Positions 22,607-35,924 of a DNA stretch of 64,000 bases are shown piece after piece (the stretch's first letter is position 1; every line of letters starts with the position of its first letter). The position numbers and the translations under genes were made by a program. The notes under the pieces are model-generated. The model saw only the letters and a list, made by a program, of their open reading frames with translations. It was not told the origin of the DNA and made no database searches. The stretch is from Edaphovirga cremea (GTDB lineage: Bacteria > Pseudomonadota > Gammaproteobacteria > Enterobacterales > Enterobacteriaceae): the NCBI RefSeq assembly GCF_003332275.1, contig NZ_QOVA01000005.1:62001-126000 (forward strand), in the 5' to 3' direction.

Positions 22607-25600
22607 CGGTTTATCCCCGCTGGCGCGGGGAACACATTTTCACAAAGTCGGGACTCGTGACGATGTACGGTTTATCCCCGCTGGCGCGGGGAACACCCCC
22701 ACATGTAACGGCAATGCAAGAATATTGTCGGTTTATCCCCGCTGGCGCGGGGAACACTTATCGAGTGACGACGTGAAGCGTTTGCGGTTCGGTTTATCCC
22801 CGCTGGCGCGGGGAACACTGTCCCTGTCATCATCAAAGCGGGGGTTGATGCGGTTTATCCCCGCTGCCGCGGGGAACACCATACATATCGCCGTCAAACT
22901 CAACCAATTCACGGTTTATCCCCGCTGCCGCGGGGAACACAAGTTTGTGCATCATCCCAGCCGCAACGCTGGCGGTTTATCCCCGCTGCCGCGGGGAACA
23001 CACAGGATGTTTACTGTTGGAGATGAATTGTGGCGGTTTATCCCCGCTGCCGCGGGGAACACGCGGTAAAATGGCGGTTAACATTTTGACGTCATCGGTT
23101 TATCCCCGCTGCCGCGGGGAACACTATTTGATATTTTACCGGATAGTAAAGGTAGGCGGTTTATCCCCGCTGGCGCGGGGAACACGTAGATGACCTCGTA
23201 AAGAAATATTGGCATCCCGGTTTATCCCCGCTGGCGCGGGGAACCCCCCCCAACGAAGCAATCACAATTTTTGTCTCGGTTTATCCCCGCTGGCGCGGGG
23301 AACACAGGCGGATAATGCACGCGTGTTTGACTTTACACGGTTTATCCCCGCTGGCGCGGGGAACACCGGCGCAATGCGTAAAATCAGCGCTTAAAACTCG
23401 GTTTATCCCCGCTGGCGCGGGGAACACTGCTTAACGCGACGCGCGTTTTCTGCTGCCGCCGGTTTATCCCCGCTGGCGCGGGGAACACTCCATAAGTAAA
23501 TATATGGATTTATTTTATCTCGGTTTATCCCCGCTGGCGCGGGGAACACTGACAACTGAGTGAGGTCATGTCGAAAGACAGCGGTTTATCCCCGCTGGCG
23601 CGGGGAACACCAACAGAGAAGGGAAAAGAGGTTGTTGCTCGCCGGTTTATCCCCGCTGGCGCGGGGAACACGGCAGACGTGTCAACTCCGCTCAAGCAGT
23701 GGACGGTTTATCCCCGCTGGCGCGGGGAACACCCATGAAAATGTATGGACAGACGGCATCAAAACGGTTTATCCCCGCTGGCGCGGGGAACACCTTTGCA
23801 GTGGGCGTTAACTCAGATTAATAGGCGGTTTATCCCCGCTGGCGCGGGGAACACTAACGCGGAGGTAACTTTACGGGCGTGCTCAGCGGTTTATCCCCGC
23901 TGACGCGGGGAACACTTTAAGAATGAATTTAGGGACATCACCAAACGCGGTTTATCCCCGCTGGCGCGGGGAACACAAAACCGCATTCGCCAGAAATTAA
24001 AATCTTTACGGTTTATCCCCGCTGGCGCGGGGAACACTTAAATTATTGAACGATGGCGGGTATGATGCACGGTTTATCCCCGCTGGCGCGGGGAACACAA
24101 ACTGCGATAATTGTTGTTTCGCTCATTTCCCGGTTTATCCCCGCTGGCGCGGGGAACACTTCACTTGGTGATGGCTACTATGCCGCCGTAGCGGTTTATC
24201 CCCGCTGGCGCGGGGAACACGATTTTCTTAGTGCTGCGGTGATTACGAATTCCGGTTTATCCCCGCTGGCGCGGGGAACACTGTCTCATTTGAACCGGAC
24301 GCAGGGAATCCAGCGGTTTATCCCCGCTGGCGCGGGGAACACTCCAAGTATGGCGAGAGTGATTAAGCCAATTGCGGTTTATCCCCGCTGGCGCGGGGAA
24401 CACTGGCGTCAGCCCTGATAAACAAAGGCGACGCTCGGTTTATCCCCGCTGGCGCGGGGAACACTGCGCCGAACCGTGCCTGGTGACTGGATTATTCGGT
24501 TTATCCCCGCTGGCGCGGGGAACACATGAAAAGCATTGCAGAGATCCGCAGGGAAAACGGTTTATCCCCGCTGGCGCGGGGAACACAAAAATAATCAAAA
24601 TCATCATTTACATTATTTCGGTTTATCCCCGCTGGCGCGGGGAACACCGTCAGCACGACAGGCAGGAAATAAATGGCGTCGGTTTATCCCCGCTGGCGCG
24701 GGGAACACTTTGATATTAGACTGTGAATCGTTTCTGCGTGCGGTTTATCCCCGCTGGCGCGGGGAACACGGTGGGATGAATGCCCATCCCCCGAGCTAAA
24801 ACGGTTTATCCCCGCTGGCGCGGGGAACACTCCAGTATCCTCTACCAACGCAATCTATAGCTCGGTTTATCCCCGCTGGCGCGGGGAACACCATTTATTG
24901 CCGCAGCAAGTCCCATTGTTGTGCGGTTTATCCCCGCTGGCGCGGGGAACACGCCATATGATGGCGAGACAAGGATTGCGCAGACGGTTTATCCCCGCTG
25001 GCGCGGGGAACACGGACCGTTCGGCGTTTGGCTTGTCAAATAATGCGGTTTATCCCCGCTGGCGCGGGGAACACTTCCCCAAAGACTTTTTTTACCCTCT
25101 CCGGCCCGGTTTATCCCCGCTGGCGCGGGGAACACCCCTGCAGGAGTTAGCATCCCTGGAGATTCCACGGTTTATCCCCGCTGGCGCGGGGAACACTTAC
25201 TACGGCGACCAGATTCTTTGCGACTGACCGGTTTATCCCCGCTGGCGCGGGGAACACAATGACGATAAAAAGCCGGATACTAGACCCGGCGGTTTATCCC
25301 CGCTGGCGCGGGGAACACTGCTCGACAATATGAGTGGCGTATTTAGTAATCGGTTTATCCCCGCTGGCGCGGGGAACACTGCGCAGTCATCAATTCAACG
25401 AGGTAGACGAACGGTTTATCCCCGCTGGCGCGGGGAACACACCTGCCGCTTGAGAGCCTTGTCACCAGTAGGCGGTTTATCCCCGCTGGCGCGGGGAACA
25501 CTACGGTAGAACTGCCACTGCCTGAATCGTCACCGGTTTATCCCCGCTGGCGCGGGGAACACACGTAGAGCATCGCTATCAAAGCCGTCACGGCCGGTTT

Positions 25601-26783
25601 ATCCCCGCTGGCGCGGGGAACACGATGTAGCTTTCTTTCAGGCGGGTGATGTCGCCGGTTTATCCCCGCTGGCGCGGGGAACACTGCGTCTTTACCAAGT
25701 TTTGATACTGCCTCGGCGGTTTATCCCCGCTGGCGCGGGGAACACATAAGCCTGAGCATGACGAGCAATATTATAAACGGTTTATCCCCGCTGGCGCGGG
25801 GAACACGCTATTTTTAACGCATTCATCATTATAATTAGCGGTTTATCCCCGCTGGCGCGGGGAACACAATATTTGTCGCCACTAAATTGTAGGATTTACC
25901 GGTTTATCCCCGCTGGCGCGGGGAACACATATACAGGAGCGCCATATATTCTAGTAATGCCGGTTTATCCCCGCTGGCGCGGGGAACACATATTTCTGCA
26001 TTCGCCAATCAGCAAAACATGCGGTTTATCCCCGCTGGCGCGGGGAACACTTATTTAGCCCCCTTAGCGCCGGGAAGATAATCGGTTTATCCCCGCTGGC
26101 GCGGGGAACACATCGCGGTGATTTTTTCTGTTCATTCCCCAATCGGTTTATCCCCGCTGGCGCGGGGAACACGCGTTTTATTTCACTTTCAACAATGCCG
26201 TTATCGGTTTATCCCCGCTGGCGCGGGGAACACCCTTAGCGCCGGGAAGATAATCTTTCATATCATCGGTTTATCCCCGCTGGCGCGGGGAACACCTACA
26301 CTATTAAGCATTGTGCTAGCCAATGATCGGTTTATCCCCGCTGGCGCGGGGAACACTCGGAGGCATAGGGATTATCCTGCGCAACCTCCGGTTTATCCCC
26401 GCTGGCGCGGGGAACACTTGAGTCCCAGGCTGGCAGCGTAGCGTATGCCCGGTTTATCCCCGCTGGCGCGGGGAACACTCATTCATGGATGAAGGCGATT
26501 TCGGTGGTGGCGGTTTATCCCCGCTGGCGCGGGGAACACGGTTAGCAAGTAAAAGCGGGGTTTCGTATTCGCGGTTTATCCCCGCTGGCGCGGGGAACAC
26601 TTGCCTTACATCATAATTGCCCACCATCGACGCGGTTTATCCCCGCTGGCGCGGGGAACACACCTCTATTTGTCGGCGCCTTATTGTACCAGACGGTTTA
26701 TCCCCGCTGGCGCGGGGAACACTCCCTGGTAAATTAAAATAATACGGAGGTAGACGGTTTATCCCCGCTGGCGCGGGGAACAC
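22607..26783 (-). CRISPR. Type I-E CRISPR array, 69 repeats / 68 spacers
   Basis: The 29-bp repeat reads on the plus strand CGGTTTATCCCCGCTGGCG then CGGGGAACAC; the crRNA sense is the minus strand, beginning GTGTTCCCC and ending ATAAACCG. I traced all 69 repeat starts from 22607 to 26755. Sixty-five spacers are 32 bp, two are 33 bp (23063-23095, 26234-26266) and one is 30 bp (23247-23276). The leader and cas2 lie at the right, so newest spacers are at the right. Repeats 5-9 (starting 22851, 22912, 22973, 23034, 23096) share GCTGCCGCGG instead of GCTGGCGCGG; repeat 22 (23887) has GCTGACGCGG; repeat 11 (23218) ends AACCC. Spacers at 26051-26082 and 26234-26266 share 21 nt. Confidence 0.99.
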
Positions 26784-26867: not shown

Positions 26868-28081
<1,214 letters not shown>

Positions 28082-28088
28082 CTCTGAT

Positions 28089-28688
28089 TTACCTGTTAGC
28101 CAGCGAGAGCAAACCACAGCCAAATGCCTTGGCGGGACCGATGCCATTTTCCAGCAAAGCCAGTAATGCGTCGTGATTCTCAACAATCAACGCACCGCTA
28201 AATACCACTGACTGAATTTTGCCAGCATGGCCAGACTTGCGAAAATGCAGCACGTTGTCCGGCGTAATCTCAAGCGAACTTAACGCCGCGCTATTTGCCA
28301 GCTTCCTTTCAAGCCATTGACGTTGCTCCAACTCATCAATCAGCGGCACCCGGCAGGATTTAACCTCCCCCTGGCGATTCTTGCGGCCATCTTCATCGCG
28401 AATGCTTTTTATCGGGTTAGCACGCAGGCAAAACCGCAAAGCGATCCCCGACCGCAAGATCGGCTGAAATGTCTTACTGGCTAATACATTGGCAGACTCA
28501 CAGGATTTTGGTTGAGAGTGAGACTGCAACAAGACAGTCATACCTTGCCCGACTACCGCTTTCTCAGTGCGAAATAGGTAATCCCGGCTTTCTGTTGAAC
28601 GCTGCGGGAAAAGTTGCCAAAGAACCTGATGCCACTGGTAACTATTTGCAGCGAACTTCCACGGGAGATAGATTCGGCTAAGATACAT
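28089..28688 (-). CDS. casE: Cas6e (CasE), crRNA-processing endoribonuclease
   Basis: 199 aa from the ATG at 28688 (GGAGGACAAG upstream). Starts MYLSRIYLPW; the catalytic-type histidine lies in YQWHQVLWQLFP, and the C-terminal glycine-rich loop GIGPAKAFGCGLLSLA is characteristic. Cleaves pre-crRNA at the 3' base of each repeat hairpin, leaving the AUAAACCG handle, and stays bound as part of Cascade. Overlaps cas5 by 11 nt. Confidence 0.96.
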   Translation of the reverse strand: MYLSRIYLPWKFAANSYQWHQVLWQLFPQRSTESRDYLFRTEKAVVGQGMTVLLQSHSQPKSCESANVLASKTFQPILRSGIALRFCLRANPIKSIRDEDGRKNRQGEVKSCRVPLIDELEQRQWLERKLANSAALSSLEITPDNVLHFRKSGHAGKIQSVVFSGALIVENHDALLALLENGIGPAKAFGCGLLSLANR

Positions 28689-29340
28689 CTTGTCCTCCCA
28701 GAGATTTTTCATACCAGCGATGTGCAGAAAACTGGCGCGGAAGATGTGGAATGGGTTCGTCACGAAGGTTATGTATCCGATCATAACCCGGCAACTCATC
28801 CTCGCTGTAAACCTTTCCTTTAATATCATCAACTAAACCATAGGCTTGCAGCGGATCACCGGCGCTGATCCGATCCAGGAATAATGGCGAAGTGATTGGG
28901 CAACTGCGCCGCCCGAGATAAGGTGTATAGCGCGGAAATTTCACCGCCTGTTGCAGGGTGTTCAGCGTCTGCGAATCATCATCCGGACTCCAGACAGCGA
29001 CGGTAAAACATGCATCACACAGATACTCTCGTCGGGTGATGATGGTTTCATGGGATTTCAGGCTCTGGTAGTCTACTCTCGCATCCTTAATAGTATGAAA
29101 ATCAGTGATTTTTTCTGCTTTCAGGCTCTCATTATCGTCACAACGCACCGCGAACCTGACGCTTTCCGCAAGCAGCAATAACGCGGCGCGATCGCTGCGA
29201 CCAATGCCTTGGCAGGCGGCCAATAATCCTAGTAAACCACTGCGGGTCGGAAACAGAGCGCAGGGGCGTGCGCCTTCAAAAGTCGGTGTTCCCCAAGCCT
29301 GCATCGGTCCCTGAAGGCGTAACATCAGATAATCGCGCAT
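28678..29340 (-). CDS. casD: Cas5e (CasD), Cascade subunit
   Basis: 220 aa from the ATG at 29340 (GGAAGGGAATAATC upstream). LMLRLQGPMQAWGTPTFEGA, PTRSGLLGLLAACQGIGR and ITRREYLCDACFTVAV are typical of Cas5e. It caps the crRNA 5' handle and contacts Cse1 in Cascade. Confidence 0.96.
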   Translation of the reverse strand: MRDYLMLRLQGPMQAWGTPTFEGARPCALFPTRSGLLGLLAACQGIGRSDRAALLLLAESVRFAVRCDDNESLKAEKITDFHTIKDARVDYQSLKSHETIITRREYLCDACFTVAVWSPDDDSQTLNTLQQAVKFPRYTPYLGRRSCPITSPLFLDRISAGDPLQAYGLVDDIKGKVYSEDELPGYDRIHNLRDEPIPHLPRQFSAHRWYEKSLGGQDVS

Positions 29341-29342
29341 GA

Positions 29343-30434
29343 TTATTCCCTTCCATCTGCCCTGATCCATGATTCCAACGCTGGCATTGTCGGCAAGGAG
29401 AACAACTCTGGTGGGAAGGTGAGTTCAGTCGCGGTAAAACCGGCGCAGCGTTCATCCAATCCATAACCTTGATGGATACGTTGCCAGTAATTTTGCAACG
29501 ATTTTACCGACGGAATGAGGAATCCCTGATCGTCGGCTTTTACCGGTCGCTCGAAAGCATTGGCCAATGAAATTGGAAGATCGGAGAAACTGATCATCAC
29601 CACATCTGCGGGGTTAAAGGCCGCAAAACTGTTCTGTTTCGCGCTGGGAACCTCCGTCGCTAACATATGCGCCAGATGCGCGGCAATATCCAGAGCAGTC
29701 GCGCGATCCACACCCCCTAAATTCTGTTGCAGTTGCGCAATATTAAGGCTGGCGTAGCGATAAAAAACCCCGGATGAAAACTCTTGGGTATCCAGGTGTC
29801 CAGAACCCAATTCCTGAAGATCGTCCACGGCGGTAAACCAGTCGATGTCGGAGTCCACGCTGTGGGTGGTAATAGCGTGTGCGACGGCCATCGCGCCATC
29901 TACTTTGCCTACTTCACTCATTAATCCAGATGTCGCCATGCGCCCACTGAGCGCCACATCGACACCATTATTCAGGGTCTGGTTCATGGCGATGATATGT
30001 TCTTTAAATGCTTTACCCAGTTTTTTAATGTCTGTTTCTTCTGTTTCTGATATTTTCTGACAAAACCAGGAAAACTCACTTAATACCCAAGGGGCTACAG
30101 CATCCCCTAGCCATTTATCATCGCCTTTAGGCAATTCCTTACCGGAAATAAGCTGTATCGCCTTTTCGATTAATTCGGCTGAAAATGTTTCACTCAATTC
30201 AGCAATAAAATGTTCTTTTAATTGACCCAATTGCCGGGTACGAATACTGCTTTCACCTAAATGCTGCTGATAATAGGCACTTTTACGTAGTGAACGTTTC
30301 AGACTTTGACTGGAAATACGCACCCTGCGCTTACCGCCGAATACGGTATCTTTCTGCATATTCATGTCGTCACGGTTCAGACAAGAAGGGCTGTGGGAAA
30401 TTAATACGTGAAAGTTAATAAAGTTTTTTTCCAT
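29343..30434 (-). CDS. casC: Cas7e (CasC), Cascade backbone subunit
   Basis: 363 aa. [40 protein letters not shown] and RSLR are the conserved start of Cas7e; [20 protein letters not shown] and [17 protein letters not shown] follow. Six copies form the helical backbone on the crRNA, kinking every sixth nucleotide. Lies 4 bp after cse2. Confidence 0.97.
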
Positions 30435-30438
30435 TTTC

Positions 30439-30918
30439 TTAATCCTTCTTCTCTTTATGAAGTCCTAAAACGAAATCTTCCAGTAAACGACGTTTGCTTT
30501 GCGTATTCCAGTACGTCAGTTGCCTGACCAAACGTGACCAGCGCAATGTTGGCCCAACCTGTTTGATCACCCGACGCAACTGCACCATGTCATTAGGCCA
30601 GTCAGAGCGGATAATCTGGTATAGGCGCATTTCAGATATCCGCCGCTCTTTATTACTCGCCAGGGCTTTGCCCAATGAAATATCAGTCTCTGTGTTGGTG
30701 ATGGCATCCGTACTTACTACAAACACTAACCGTAATAGACTTTGCCGTTCGAATTGGTTCAAATCCTCATGCCAACCCGCTGGCTGAACCAATCGGTAGA
30801 ATGCCGGTATTGATAACAAATCGTCAGGTTCTGCGGTGCGGCGTAACTCTGCCTTCGGCCCCGGCGGTAAGGCATTCCAGGCTTTGAGTAAACCGGATGC
30901 ATCAATGGATTGCTTCAT
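30439..30918 (-). CDS. casB: Cse2 (CasB), Cascade small subunit
   Basis: 159 aa, all-helical, Arg/Lys-rich, with [20 protein letters not shown] and [20 protein letters not shown] as in other Cse2 proteins. Binds along the crRNA-DNA hybrid and the displaced strand. Its start lies within the last 17 nt of cse1. Confidence 0.94.
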
Positions 30919-32437
30919 CTACAATTCCTTTTTGCGGTTGAAGATGGTTAAGATCTTGTCCTAATTTTCTACGCGTTAATGCGGCGATCACGGTGATTGC
31001 CGGATGATGCAGGTAGGGATCTGTCGCCCGGTTAAATAATTCTCGGCATAGCAAGTCTAACTGCTTGCGCAATAAGTCTTCCAAGTGGTCTTCGTCTTGT
31101 ACCAAATATCCAGATAACGCATCAAGAATGGCGGATTCAGAATGGCTATAAAAGAGTGGCTCCATCACTTCATGTAATGGCACGCCCGTCCCCTTCATCT
31201 TGATATCTTTGCTTTTTAAACCGATATAAAACTGGTAAAGCGCGCTACGCAAGGCTTTTTTATATTCGCGTCCAATTTTAACAATATAATCTACCCATAG
31301 AGGATTGCGCAGTATTTCCGGGCTAAGATTAAATACGTCGTGTCGACGTTCAATAATTGATGCCTGATTATTTCGATACCCCCCCAGCATCAGCATCCAC
31401 TTTGAATTATCGGTAAACAGTTTAATGGCCTGGTTGACGACAATCGCTGGCGATTGTCCCTCTATTTTTTGTGCTACCTGTTGCTTAACAATAACCCGTG
31501 AAAGTTGCGTCCATGAGGGTGCGGCGGTGGTAAACGCCAAAAATTTCTGCTCGACAACTCCCTTTTTGATGGCAAACAAACGCGGTGAATGTGGATGCAG
31601 CCACATTCCTTCAACGGTGAAATTAAACTTCTCTTTATAAAAACCACTAAAACGCTGTGCGTGAGGCTGACCACATAGCGTACAGAGACCTTCACCCAGT
31701 GGCGGCAATAATTCAATATGCGCGGGTTGCCAGAATAGACCTCGCAGCAAACCGATTTTTTCGGCGGGAATACTCTCCCCACTCTTTATCGGCTCGATCC
31801 ATACCGGAGGCTGATTTAAACTATTTTTCCAGTCTACAGCGTATTCCGCATTTAAGGTCTCTTCGGTAAGAATATTGAACCAGAGGGTTGTCCGAATATG
31901 CTCGGCGTATAACAACGTGGTTACCGGTGCGCCCCCGCGCAAACCACTTTTGAATCCACCACCAAAACCCGGCGCGTTGTTCGCCTGATTGAATAAGACA
32001 ATCGCCGTACATCCCGGGCACAGTGCTTCAGCCTGTCCCGGTTCATTCACAAACGCACAGTTGGTTGAACCGCTAAGACCGGTCAATAACTTATCCATAT
32101 CGGTAATTTCAGACGCCTTAACCCCTTTCGTCTGCATAAAGGGGTGGTCGGGATGTTGCAGGTCGAACATCCCGGCAAATGGCGCGGACAAGCGCTGATA
32201 TTCTTCTTCACTCAGCGGTTCACGACCTCGCTGCCGCCAAACGCTGAAATTTTCCGGAATACACATCACCTGCACCAGACACAGGATAAGTTGCATCGCT
32301 GCCATTTCCATGTCATCACGCGGCAAGCAGAACAGATAGCGCTTGTCTTCGCACAAAAGCTGTCGCAGCGAGATGCGCTGCGACACTTTTCGCCCCAATT
32401 CCGTCACCGGAATCCAGGCCGAGTGGAGTAAGTCCAT
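30902..32437 (-). CDS. casA: Cse1 (CasA, Cas8e), PAM-recognition subunit of Cascade
   Basis: 511 aa. Conserved blocks include MDLLHSAWIPVTELGRKVSQ, PGFGGGFKSGLRGGAPVTTL and zinc-type CPGC and CTLC pairs. Recognises the PAM and recruits Cas3. The start at 32437 has AGGAG 7 nt upstream, and this Shine-Dalgarno overlaps the stop of a 36-codon upstream ORF (GTTAGGAGC), so cse1 is the second cistron of the operon and probably translationally coupled to that ORF. Confidence 0.97.
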   Translation of the reverse strand: MDLLHSAWIPVTELGRKVSQRISLRQLLCEDKRYLFCLPRDDMEMAAMQLILCLVQVMCIPENFSVWRQRGREPLSEEEYQRLSAPFAGMFDLQHPDHPFMQTKGVKASEITDMDKLLTGLSGSTNCAFVNEPGQAEALCPGCTAIVLFNQANNAPGFGGGFKSGLRGGAPVTTLLYAEHIRTTLWFNILTEETLNAEYAVDWKNSLNQPPVWIEPIKSGESIPAEKIGLLRGLFWQPAHIELLPPLGEGLCTLCGQPHAQRFSGFYKEKFNFTVEGMWLHPHSPRLFAIKKGVVEQKFLAFTTAAPSWTQLSRVIVKQQVAQKIEGQSPAIVVNQAIKLFTDNSKWMLMLGGYRNNQASIIERRHDVFNLSPEILRNPLWVDYIVKIGREYKKALRSALYQFYIGLKSKDIKMKGTGVPLHEVMEPLFYSHSESAILDALSGYLVQDEDHLEDLLRKQLDLLCRELFNRATDPYLHHPAITVIAALTRRKLGQDLNHLQPQKGIVDEAIH

Positions 32438-32446
32438 ATTTTGCTC

Positions 32447-32557
32447 CTAACGTGTTGATAGTATGTAAAATACTAGCAATAGTGCCAAGATCACGGCAAT
32501 CATCGCTAACCCTATCGGGGTCTGTTTTAGCAGCGCCTTGAGAATGTAATTATTCAT
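32447..32557 (-). CDS. 36-aa single-span membrane peptide, first cistron of the cas operon (possible CreT-like toxin)
   Basis: Too short for ordinary gene finding. ATG at 32557 with a strong Shine-Dalgarno AGGGAGGT 3 nt upstream; TAG at 32447-32449. The peptide starts MNNYILKALLKQTPIG and continues as one hydrophobic span, LAMIAVILALLLVFYIL, ending STR, like small membrane toxins of type I toxin-antitoxin systems. Rare codons are frequent: four CTA and two ATA. It lies 9 nt before cse1 and just downstream of a site matching the neighbouring crRNA-like RNA. Alternatives: a leader peptide tuning cse1 translation, or a small accessory membrane protein. Expression and toxicity are inference. Confidence 0.65.
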   Translation of the reverse strand: MNNYILKALLKQTPIGLAMIAVILALLLVFYILSTR

Positions 32558-32583
32558 CGTACCTCCCTGGTTGATTTTCAGGC

Positions 32584-32612
32584 AGTTTATTCCCTCTCGA
32601 TAAATACTGCAA
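32584..32612 (-). promoter_or_regulatory. Candidate promoter of the cas operon
   Basis: On the minus strand TTGCAG (32612-32607), 17 bp, TAAACT (32589-32584), giving a start near 32577 and a ~20-nt leader before the small ORF. The match is modest, as expected for a promoter that is weak or needs an activator. The AAG PAM (32611-32613) overlaps its -35. Confidence 0.4.
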
Positions 32613-32645
32613 GAGCGTAATTAATTTAACACCAGCCATCTTTTG
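32611..32645 (+). promoter_or_regulatory. Protospacer-like target of the crRNA-like RNA, with AAG PAM
   Basis: PAM AAG at 32611-32613, then AGCGTAATTAA (32614-32624), identical to the first 11 nt of the spacer-like segment at 32731. The first mismatch is position 12, a flipped-out position in type I-E R-loops, and 13-15 and 18-20 match again; 20 of 32 positions agree. Seed plus PAM with poor distal pairing should allow Cascade binding without efficient cleavage. The site covers the region just upstream of and at the -35 of the cas operon. Confidence 0.8.
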
Positions 32646-32668
32646 ATGTTAGGATAGCTCGTCATTCA

Positions 32669-32697
32669 TTAACAGACTCCCATCTAAAGGCTATAAT
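32669..32697 (+). promoter_or_regulatory. Strong sigma70 promoter of the crRNA-like RNA
   Basis: TTAACA (32669-32674), 17-bp spacer, TATAAT (32692-32697). Transcription would begin near 32704, inside the first degenerate repeat, so the RNA starts just before the repeat hairpin. Confidence 0.82.
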
Positions 32698-32701
32698 ATT
32701 C

Positions 32702-32730
32702 ACCTTCCCCGCGCCTGCGGGGATAAACCG
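32702..32730 (+). repeat. Degenerate CRISPR repeat 1 of the mini-unit
   Basis: 25 of 29 positions match the array repeat in crRNA sense. Changes are at the first three bases and one loop base (GCCT for GCCA); the hairpin CCCCGC/GCGGGG and the handle ATAAACCG (32723-32730) are intact. Confidence 0.95.
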
Positions 32731-32760
32731 AGCGTAATTAAATTATTACCGTCGGAAGTT

Positions 32761-32780
32761 CAGTTCCCCAACGTTTGGGG
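32761..32780 (+). repeat. Degenerate CRISPR repeat 2 of the mini-unit
   Basis: Strongly eroded: TTCCCC is kept, then the stem is CCCCAA/TTGGGG (32766-32771 with 32775-32780) with loop CGT, against CCCCGC/GCGGGG with loop GCCA in the array. Both inner base pairs changed together, so the hairpin for Cas6e is preserved while the primary sequence and 3' tail are lost. Confidence 0.85.
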
Positions 32781-32782
32781 TT

Positions 32783-32810
32783 GGGTGCAGAAGCTACTGC
32801 TTCTGCACCC
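32783..32810 (+). terminator. 12-bp perfect hairpin ending the crRNA-like RNA and spanning the cas3 stop
   Basis: GGGTGCAGAAGC (32783-32794), loop TACT, GCTTCTGCACCC (32799-32810), followed on the plus strand by GTTTC. The stem is strong but the T tract is short. The cas3 stop codon lies in it (32794-32796), so cas3 coding sequence and hairpin share bases. Confidence 0.6.
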
Positions 32811-35421
32811 GTTTCAAACCGGTTTGTGCGTTATATGTAACGGTTGAACCAGTGAATTGCCCATCACACAAAACCCCGGCCAGCCAGATACAGCCGTCAT
32901 CGTCATAGGGGGCGTTCAGATATTTTTTCCATGAATCGGGCGCGTTCACGGTGTTAGTGATGCGGATTTCCATTTTCAGATAGTCCGGGCTCTCATCGTA
33001 ATTCACCCCGTTCAGCAATTGGCGCTGACCGTTCGCCAGTGGCACAAACGGCACTATCGACAGACTCATCTCGCCGTCGCGGGTCACCGCACGCAGATTT
33101 TCATCTTCATCCGGTATCGCCTCCTCCTCTGCTTTTCTGAGAATAAAGTGCGCCAGACTCGTTTTCACATACTGCTCTTCATTAAATTTCTCATAGGCTT
33201 GCAGGATCCAATCTGGTTCATCGCCAGTAGGATCCTGTTGGTAAATCGGTTCAATCCAGTCACGGTAGGCGGCAGGAAAACGAATCGGCTCACCGTCCAA
33301 GGCTGCCAAACGCTGCCAGGTGCGCCACATCACCAGACTGTTGCTGTAGATCAGCCCGTGAACACCAAAGTCGCTGCGGTCTGGAACCAACACAGTGAAA
33401 TGCGGTGTAGAAAATGCCGCCGGACGATATTGACGCTGATGGCGATGCAAACGCCCTAAACGCTGGAACAGCAGATCAACAGGGCATAGCTGAGTGATAA
33501 TCCAATCAAAATCCACATCAATACTTTGTTCAATTACCTGACTGGAGACCAGAATACGGCCTTTACTCCGATCGCCCTCCGACCCAAAAGTGCCAATGGC
33601 GGCCTGCTCTTTTACCTGCCGATCGTTAAAGGTGAAACGCGCATGAAACAGTTGAATTTCAATCTCATTTTGTTCATTTAACCGTTCCTTTAACCTCTCA
33701 TATAGCCCCTGAGCGACATCCACCAGATTACATATCACTGCCACCTGTGCGCCCTGCTGTGCTGCGGCTAGTAAACGTTCGATTAACTCGTCATTGGGCA
33801 GCATATCGGCCATCGGCAGAACTTCTGCGTGAAGGGTAATGTCTGGCGGCATATCGTGTTCAGGCAAGGTGAATGCCAAGTTGTCATGGCTGTCAGTCCA
33901 ACTCACTAGAGGATAATCGCGACAGGGGAGGAGCGTACTCTGCCAGGCATGTGCCAACGCTTGACGTTGGTATTCTGGCAACGTCGCAGATAATAAAATC
34001 GCCGACCCACCTGCCGCTTTTTGCGCGGACAATACCGCACTGAGTAGTCCGTACATGTAGGTGCTGTAGGCGTGGACTTCATCAATGATTAATACGCTGC
34101 GACCAATGCCGAACTGCCGAACAAAACGGTGCTTAACTGGTAACACCGAGACCAAAACCTGATCGACGGTACAGATCCCGATCTGCCCCAACAGTGCGCG
34201 TTTACGCGAATGGAACCATTCGGCGCATTGTACCGTGGCCTCTTCATCACCCTGTAACTGCCGTTGAGGTCGTTGTTTTATCTCGGTAAACAATTTATTA
34301 AAGCTGGCGTTACCATGTGCCAATACAAGATTGGGTGCAGAAAATAGCTGACTCGCCAATTTTTCAACCCGGGCAAACATCGCATTGGCAGACGCCTGGG
34401 TCGGTAACGCAAAAATAATACTGTCCGCTTCACCCTGAGATAAAAGACGCCATGCCAGCGCCAACGCCATTTCGGTTTTTCCTGATCCGGTAGGCGCTTC
34501 CACCACCGTGAGACCGGATTTTACGGGTAACCTATCGACCAACGTCTGCAATTGGCGCGGGATCTTTCCGTCCGGTAATAACACGCCCACGCCCTGGTAT
34601 TGATACGGTCTCTCCAGCAGAGGAGAACAAGCCTGTTGCGCTTCGCCGTGTACCCGCTGCTGAAAATAGTCATTCAGCGTCAGGCTATTGTCATCGCAAA
34701 ACGGGAATGATTCCTGAGAACCCAACCAGTCGCAAATACAACAGAATCCGGCCAACATCAGGCTGACCGGAGGGGGAACGTCATCCGCTGTTAACCCGAC
34801 GGGAGAAAGAAATAACGCGGCCAAATCATCGACAAGTGCCTGACGCGCAATGGCATCTTGCTGCGCAGCCTGCCCTTTCAGGAGGAAATCACTCATGTGG
34901 GCTGTCATATTATTATAAGCTACCACATGCCCGTGATGCCCTCCCACCGCCGCCATCCAGTCCAACTCCAGCTTTGGGCCATCATCGCTTTTTGGTTCAG
35001 CGAATTGGTCAAAAGGAGCGTTATCGACCGGAGTGCGATCGTAGCCATACCAAAAGACACCGGCTACACCATGATAATATTGCTTACTTTGCGTTCGAGA
35101 AGGGAGCTTTGCAGCAAAAAAGATAGGATTTAAACGCCGCCAGACCTCTGCCGCTTTTAGCTGAAAACGCAGATCAATTTTACCCAAATCATGCAGCGCG
35201 ATAAAAAACAGCACCCAGGCACGATACTGTTCAGCTGGGATATCAACATCATGCATAAAACTTTGCCGCAGATGCGCTGATGAATCCCACCACACAGCCG
35301 CCACGGCGGCAACATCCAGAGCGTGAAAAGGCAATAAATGGCAGAGGATAGTCGGATGATCTTCCGCCTCACGCGCTTTGCCCCAATATCGGTAATAGGG
35401 AGGGCATTTCTCTCGGGTCAT
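32794..35421 (-). CDS. cas3: Cas3, HD nuclease-helicase (type I-E)
   Basis: 875 aa from the ATG at 35421 (AAGGAATG upstream). N-terminal HD nuclease with FIALHDLGKIDLRFQ; superfamily 2 helicase with Walker A EAPTGSGKTEMALALAW, motif II LIIDEVHAYSTYM, motif III LLSATLPEYQ and motif VI LFQRLGRLHRHQ. Recruited by Cse1 at a fully paired R-loop to nick and degrade target DNA. Unlike a simple operon, it is separated from cse1 by a 357-bp interval that holds a guide RNA gene and a tiny ORF. All key motifs are intact. Confidence 0.97.
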   Translation of the reverse strand: MTREKCPPYYRYWGKAREAEDHPTILCHLLPFHALDVAAVAAVWWDSSAHLRQSFMHDVDIPAEQYRAWVLFFIALHDLGKIDLRFQLKAAEVWRRLNPIFFAAKLPSRTQSKQYYHGVAGVFWYGYDRTPVDNAPFDQFAEPKSDDGPKLELDWMAAVGGHHGHVVAYNNMTAHMSDFLLKGQAAQQDAIARQALVDDLAALFLSPVGLTADDVPPPVSLMLAGFCCICDWLGSQESFPFCDDNSLTLNDYFQQRVHGEAQQACSPLLERPYQYQGVGVLLPDGKIPRQLQTLVDRLPVKSGLTVVEAPTGSGKTEMALALAWRLLSQGEADSIIFALPTQASANAMFARVEKLASQLFSAPNLVLAHGNASFNKLFTEIKQRPQRQLQGDEEATVQCAEWFHSRKRALLGQIGICTVDQVLVSVLPVKHRFVRQFGIGRSVLIIDEVHAYSTYMYGLLSAVLSAQKAAGGSAILLSATLPEYQRQALAHAWQSTLLPCRDYPLVSWTDSHDNLAFTLPEHDMPPDITLHAEVLPMADMLPNDELIERLLAAAQQGAQVAVICNLVDVAQGLYERLKERLNEQNEIEIQLFHARFTFNDRQVKEQAAIGTFGSEGDRSKGRILVSSQVIEQSIDVDFDWIITQLCPVDLLFQRLGRLHRHQRQYRPAAFSTPHFTVLVPDRSDFGVHGLIYSNSLVMWRTWQRLAALDGEPIRFPAAYRDWIEPIYQQDPTGDEPDWILQAYEKFNEEQYVKTSLAHFILRKAEEEAIPDEDENLRAVTRDGEMSLSIVPFVPLANGQRQLLNGVNYDESPDYLKMEIRITNTVNAPDSWKKYLNAPYDDDGCIWLAGVLCDGQFTGSTVTYNAQTGLKRVQKQ

Positions 35422-35924
35422 GTCACATTCCTTGTATGACCTTACATTAAGAGAGCTTATTAAATGATCACTCGCTGACATTCACCGTGATTGATATCTC
35501 CATTTAACATGTTATTTATCAAAACGCTTGCCGCTATGCGTGTACTTCCCCCTCGCATAGGGTTATATAAAAATAGCAGCTTCATTCAATCAATCTGAAG
35601 GCATGAAATGTTTTCATGCTTCTGGTTCATTTTTTTCTAAAAAATAGGGGATTTTGTTACAGGATTTTGAAAAATACGAAGCATCAATTTTCTTTGGGTC
35701 GCCGAATCCCAGCGCGGAACCGGGCTGGGGCGGCAGAGCAAGAGGCATTGGCGCGAAACTGCCAATCACCCCACCTTCCCTGACATAAAAATGAATGCAC
35801 CTTGCCGCGGTTATTTATTCAAACTGTGAACGCGGTTGGGAAATAGTGAATAAAGTAACCATAACAAGCTATCACACCCCCGACGTGGTAAAATACAGTC
35901 CTATACACCAATGCGGTGAACATT
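35422..35924. other. AT-rich region upstream of cas3
   Basis: 503 bp with no complete gene. It should hold the cas3 promoter. A short GNAT-like translated fragment lies at 35671-35829 (separate entry). Confidence 0.5.
35671..35829 (+). pseudogene. Fragment resembling a GNAT acetyltransferase motif A
   Basis: One frame reads INFLWVAESQRGTGLGRQ, which fits the GNAT acetyl-CoA binding motif (LWV.E..RG.GLG..L). The flanks do not continue as a GNAT domain, and there is no start codon or Shine-Dalgarno. Most likely the scar of a lost gene, possibly chance similarity. Confidence 0.35.

Follow-up and report, generated by a model that had tools for sequence, protein, structure and literature searches.

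A putative type I-E CreR between cas3 and cse1 of Edaphovirga cremea whose seed match to its own cas promoter region covaries across relatives

Introduction

Why should a single repeat-spacer unit lie between cas3 and cse1, apart from the CRISPR array, and why do the first nucleotides of its spacer recur in front of the operon that encodes Cascade? We addressed this question in a stretch of 64,000 nucleotides from Edaphovirga cremea (contig NZ_QOVA01000005.1), referred to here as the window. A first-pass annotation, made from the letters alone, had proposed a CreR/CreA-type guide through which Cascade represses its own operon.

The guide unit and its target site

The type I-E operon of the window is complete, with cas3, cse1, cse2, cas7, cas5, cas6e, cas1 and cas2 all matching NCBIfam models. 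It was noted that a gap of 356 bp separates cas3 from cse1, with the cas operon on the minus strand and the guide unit on the plus strand, where a promoter, a first repeat (R1), a spacer, a second repeat (R2) and a strong hairpin follow one another in that order. The features are listed below.

32669..32697, plus strand: predicted guide RNA promoter, TTAACA-17-TATAAT, 11 of 12 consensus positions
32705..32730, plus strand: degenerate repeat 1 (R1), TTCCCCGCGCCTGCGGGGATAAACCG, hairpin plus handle ATAAACCG, single copy
32731..32760, plus strand: spacer (guide), 30 nt, AGCGTAATTAAATTATTACCGTCGGAAGTT, whose seed recurs at 32614 after AAG
32761..~32785, plus strand: degenerate repeat 2 (R2), 6-bp stem CCCCAA/TTGGGG kept, handle lost
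32783..32810, plus strand: strong 12-bp hairpin, likely 3' end of the RNA, overlapping the cas3 stop
32794..35481, minus strand: cas3 (PRK09694 equivalog, 1080 bits)
30902..32437, minus strand: cse1/cas8e/casA (PRK09693 equivalog, 611 bits)
26868..30918, minus strand: cse2, cas7, cas5, cas6e, cas1 and cas2, all full-length
22607..26440: native CRISPR array downstream of the operon, about 66 repeats, CGGTTTATCCCCGCTGGCGCGGGGAACAC on the plus strand

The promoter, the degenerate R1 with its intact handle, the 30-nt spacer and the degenerate R2 were all found where the first-pass annotation had placed them. The promoter is the best of four promoter-like sites in the interval (0.9 expected in shuffles), and the guide RNA is expected to start at about 32704, directly at R1. 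The 26-nt core of R1 folds as a 7-bp hairpin and agrees with the array repeat except at one loop base, with the handle kept; the repeat orientation of the unit is the reverse complement of CGGTTTATCCCCGCTGGCGCGGGGAACAC. As in CreR, the repeat-spacer unit stands alone within the cas locus and its repeat is compatible with the local Cas6 and Cascade. The second repeat, of the form TTCCC...GGG, is shared with E. coli, Citrobacter, Pantoea and Izhakiella. The 12-bp hairpin lacks a T tract and is therefore not a canonical intrinsic terminator, and the predicted guide RNA folds far better than its shuffles (z -6.8). An Rfam search returned only chance matches of the microRNA type, far below threshold.

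The site that the spacer matches lies on the cse1 side of the same gap, together with the following features.

32611..32613, plus strand: target PAM, AAG, overlapping the -35 of the cse1-side promoter
32614..32643, plus strand: target of the guide, with seed positions 1-11 exact, 12 mismatched, 13-15 and 18-20 matched
32584..32612, minus strand: predicted promoter of the small ORF-cse1 operon, TTGCAG-17-TAAACT, by consensus only
32447..32557, minus strand: 36-codon ORF encoding the single-TM peptide MNNYILKALLKQTPIGLAMIAVILALLLVFYILSTR, the first gene after the target promoter

Within the window the seed AGCGTAATTAA recurs only at 32614, with AAG directly before it, and AAG plus this seed, AAGAGCGTNATTAA, occurs a single time in the whole 5.19-Mb genome. 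The earlier claim that the first 11 spacer nucleotides recur at 32614-32624 after AAG was thereby borne out, as was its description of position 12 as the first mismatch, with matching resumed at 13-15 and 18-20. The distal part of the target is largely unmatched, and more than half of spacer positions 12-30 mismatch it; the spacer is partly complementary to a PAM-flanked site at a predicted cas promoter, and both properties are those of a CreR. The 36-codon ORF said to begin the cse1 operon is also real. The annotation had further placed the target next to the -35 of this operon, and the closeness stands, but "next to" is too weak, as the -35 overlaps the PAM itself.

The predicted RNA is convergent into the 3' end of cas3, so that it could act mainly by antisense interference with cas3 mRNA and not as a Cascade guide, a role of the kind suggested for the E. 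coli anti-Pcas transcript (PMC10011333). We regard this as highly improbable, since an antisense RNA would need neither a Cas6e-type hairpin, nor a conserved handle, nor a seed match beside AAG where the cse1 promoter lies.

Covariation of spacer and target in related loci

The interval, searched as nucleotides in E. coli genomes, had no matches there, an initial scan of contigs for cse1 was likewise empty, and a DNA search of relatives recovered array repeats only. Because these DNA searches were uninformative, loci were gathered through protein searches. The first set drew on 392 Enterobacteriaceae species and comprised the cas3-cse1 interval of every genome among them that bears Cse1, and 25 units were detected in it by hairpin and handle; further loci were taken from E. 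coli K-12 and from 73 loci with K-12-type Cse1 in named genomes (L102-L174).

In the first set, 16 of the 25 units have a PAM-flanked target within their own interval that matches at 9-10 of the 10 positions 1-5 and 7-11, and the other 9 are without a recognisable target. Seed matches of at least 9 were found in none of 600 cross-locus pairings and in 10 of 12,500 shuffled intervals. The second set behaved alike, with a seed match of at least 9 in 6 of about 2,450 cross pairings, a set that includes congener pairs with near-identical seeds. The match between seed and target is far beyond chance.

It was found that the spacers differ among 33 type I-E loci (Enterobacteriaceae, other Gammaproteobacteria and one Geobacteraceae MAG), yet each matches the site upstream of its own cse1. 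Spacer and target agree at positions 1 to 12 in 32, 33, 33, 32, 33, 9, 32, 33, 32, 33, 30 and 10 of the 33 loci, respectively, and matching declines to about chance after position 15. The PAM is AAG in 32 of these loci and ATG in the remaining one. Positions 6 and 12, at 9/33 and 10/33, are the sole near-random positions within this stretch, so that the argument first made from position 12 of the window generalises. In Cascade R-loops, positions 6 and 12 are displaced (flipped out); as they are unpaired there, selection acts precisely on the pairs that Cascade can form.

Close relatives provided examples of compensatory change. Between Xenorhabdus kozodoii and X. thuongxuanensis (L104/L173), position 11 has changed in the spacer and correspondingly in the target, and three Porticoccaceae loci (L157/L160/L161) co-vary in spacer and target at positions 3, 10 and 11. 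The R1 stem also covaries, with 24 double-changed cells among 23 R1 sequences against 7 in shuffles. Loss of seed-target covariation in relatives had been named beforehand as an outcome that would speak against the guide reading; the covariation holds across the 33 loci, congeners included, which are those that the proposed search of cas3-cse1 intervals recovered with both the repeat unit and a match upstream of their own cse1.

We also scanned 144 loci for AAG followed by a seed that recurs at 10/10 positions within the next 45-260 nt, with the repeat ignored. This handle-blind scan matched 28 loci (26 distinct), where 0.0017 per locus is expected, and every match stands directly behind a repeat hairpin and handle. 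The degenerate repeats and the partial spacer match would also suit a functionless array remnant, or a lone repeat whose match is accidental. Such an origin was rejected on three grounds, namely the covariation in 33 loci with near-random positions only at 6 and 12 of the seed, the recovery of the repeat handle by a scan blind to it, and the covariation of the R1 stem, and it retains next to no probability.

Distribution and loss of the unit

Among the 73 loci with K-12-type Cse1, 46 have no guide, and in them cas3 shares a few bases with cse1, the usual overlap being 4 bp. CreR is present in 20 of the 22 K-12-type Cse1 loci in which the gap, as measured automatically, reaches 170 bp, the exceptions being Erwinia sp. 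OLFS4 (L107) and Endozoicomonas (L164). Guide, target and promoter thus act like one cassette by which cas8e is set apart from cas3.

Several individual loci depart from this arrangement. In L032 (G410), only a cse1-proximal terminal hairpin like that of E. coli, GGGATGACTTTGCTCATCCC, is left and R1 and the spacer are absent, so CreR was possibly lost there. A second Cse1 clade, about 30% identical, often has an R2 that is a near-complete repeat (L041, L048, L052, L071, L084, L045). Repeat units without a recognisable target upstream of cse1 were observed in L045, L043, L059, L069, L078 and L079.

A small membrane peptide behind the target promoter

The 36-codon ORF of the window has a Shine-Dalgarno sequence, encodes a hydrophobic helix and is unannotated. 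At CreR loci, a peptide of 33-50 residues with an amphipathic start and one TM helix is encoded by the ORF that comes first behind the target promoter; it was found in the window and in Citrobacter, Pantoea, Marinomonas, Xenorhabdus, Methylococcaceae, Chromatiaceae, Porticoccaceae and the Geobacteraceae MAG (loci L033, L036, L102, L104, L109, L129, L130, L141, L142, L145, L147, L148, L154, L157, L160, L161 and L173 besides the window). With few exceptions the peptide ORF begins at a distance of 56-73 nt from the target, and it stops a short way before cse1. In L147, which is cut by a contig end, the peptide is present and the upstream region is unreadable.

Searches of the peptide against Pfam and NCBIfam gave no family match, and a shared small ORF sought in the second Cse1 clade yielded matches mainly to cas3 C-termini. 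The Xenorhabdus peptides differ at 4, 5 and 15 first, second and third codon positions (dN 0.12, dS 1.08), a pattern of purifying selection on the coding sequence. Because differences between relatives fall mostly at third codon positions, the ORF is very likely a real gene.

The peptide occupies the same place in 16 of the 21 CreR loci with K-12-type Cse1 (15 of 21 by the automatic test, which missed L141 through a mis-set interval) and, by the same test, in 0 of the 52 CreR-free loci, where L147 calls for the reservation just given. Most CreR-free loci lack the gap, so the association of peptide and CreR is not independent of it, with p=0.09 among loci that have a cas3-cse1 gap.

The peptide could be a guarded toxin or a Cascade accessory. 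Type I TA toxins are likewise small, with an amphipathic N-terminus and one TM helix. This resemblance, together with the 16/21 against 0/52 distribution, the near-constant distance of 56-73 nt and the purifying selection, would fit a Cascade-guarded toxin module like CreTA or CrePA, in which the guide mainly represses a small hydrophobic toxin of 36 residues. We consider this unlikely, given the confounding of the CreR association by the gap (p=0.09) and the fact that guide and target persist in E. coli K-12 and Izhakiella, where the peptide is absent. The guide is thus kept without the peptide, where a CreTA/CrePA-like module would carry its toxin gene wherever the guide is kept. The same doubt attaches to its corollary, that a cell whose Cascade is lost or inhibited would die or stall, with cas8e lying downstream in the same transcript.

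If the peptide were a guarded toxin, the unit would be a CreR/CreTA hybrid. A tentative proposal, to which we give a rather low probability, is that the peptide acts as a toxin or a membrane effector and is kept in check by Cascade through the CreR guide, such that one guide both autoregulates the operon and arms a fail-safe. Mild shortage of Cascade would then raise cas expression, and severe loss or an anti-CRISPR attack would release a membrane-damaging peptide. These small membrane peptides, linked as they are to cas operons under CreR control, point to a family not recognised before.

The E. coli K-12 locus and anti-Pcas

In E. coli K-12, R1, spacer, R2 and hairpin lie at NC_000913.3 2884484-2884588 (L061:8485-8589), and the partial target, AAG TTATTcGTtTTATTAT, lies in the casA upstream region at 2884353 (L061:8354). 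A TATAAT near 2884388 would give a start near 2884400 and an RNA of about 190 nt that ends at the hairpin. The anti-Pcas transcript is 150-200 nt long and H-NS-repressed, and its role is termed unknown in reviews (PMC7074321, PMC10011333). Anti-Pcas and the guide unit of the window are alike in position and direction; they differ in that K-12 lacks the membrane peptide that follows the target promoter in the window. From position and sequence, we infer that anti-Pcas is a CreR, which would offer an explanation for an RNA whose role was still termed unknown in 2023. No statement to this effect was found in the literature searched, with Liu 2023 and Shmakov 2023 lying outside it.

A K-12-like region was present in 1,122 of 5,426 complete E. 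coli genomes. Across six E. coli alleles, R1, spacer positions 1-11, the PAM and target positions 1-16 are invariant, and spacer position 12 varies. E. coli KMi006 and LR-06 carry an IS1 element within the matched cas3-casA region, which may disrupt the guide or the target. In the strains used for E. coli Cascade ChIP-seq, the cas3-Pcse1 region was replaced by a constitutive promoter (PMC5904413), so that guide and target would both be removed. The autoregulatory loop would thus be invisible to some studies of E. coli Cascade, among them those made with these strains.

Proposed mechanism

The anatomy of the unit, the seed and PAM match, the covariation of both the match and the R1 stem, and the intact Cascade genes make it very probable that the unit is a type I-E CreR by which Cascade autorepresses its own operon. 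The first-pass reading to this effect is supported by the comparison of 33 loci, with repression itself, like transcription, processing, binding and derepression, extrapolated from published CreR and CreA precedents.

By these precedents, a two-repeat mini-CRISPR RNA would be transcribed and then cut by Cas6e at the R1 hairpin, and the processed guide, which should begin AUAAACCGAGCG in the window and AUAAACCGUUAUUGG in the Cascade-bound species of K-12, would load into Cascade. Cascade would then bind the partial target beside AAG, over the -35 of the operon that runs from the membrane peptide through cse1, cse2, cas7, cas5, cas6e and cas1 to cas2, where the ten paired seed positions (1-5, 7-11) would hold it without the full R-loop needed for Cas3. 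As a partial R-loop would not suffice for Cas3, the site would be repressed and not cut, and free Cascade, bound at the promoter of its own operon, would limit its own synthesis. Titration of Cascade by ordinary crRNAs or its inhibition by anti-CRISPRs should relieve the repression.

The strength of the effect may be modest. In E. coli, off-target binding of Cascade through seed and PAM left nearby expression unchanged, and the repression of a promoter is said to drop steeply once 6 distal positions mismatch (PMC5904413), which suggests that repression from 10-11 pairs may be limited. The 9 of 25 Enterobacteriaceae units that have no recognisable target also speak against the reading. On the whole, the comparison is clear evidence of a guide RNA, carried by type I-E systems in Enterobacteriaceae and other Proteobacteria, that is directed at the system's own cas promoter.

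Comparison with known systems

CreR, the cas-regulating RNA of Liu et al. 2023 (doi 10.1016/j.chom.2023.08.005), is summarised in PMC13131331, PMC12737573 and PMC12948488, and its autorepression is reported for types I-B, I-E and V-A in the account of PMC13131331. As described in these summaries, CreR is, like the unit of the window, a mini-CRISPR that lies within the cas locus and is complementary to the cas promoter to a limited extent, and type I-E is one of the subtypes reported. Within what they describe there is no difference in principle, and the window has in addition a conserved membrane-peptide ORF before cas8e. In CreA of CreTA, degenerate repeats likewise flank a pseudo-spacer (PMC8501985, PMC9458426, PMC10097628), which pairs with its target through positions 1-5 and 7-11 (PMC8501985). 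The same positions of the window spacer pair beside a PAM at a promoter, as in CreA. However, CreA represses a toxic RNA gene, and the target of the window unit is a cas operon headed by a peptide ORF. Shmakov et al. 2023 reportedly described stand-alone mini-arrays of two repeats whose spacers are partly complementary to cas8 promoters. These mini-arrays resemble the window unit by description, a likeness drawn without locus-by-locus comparison. The type I-E CreR is therefore of a kind already known, to which this analysis adds how widely the covariation extends, a connection with anti-Pcas and a membrane peptide that is conserved.
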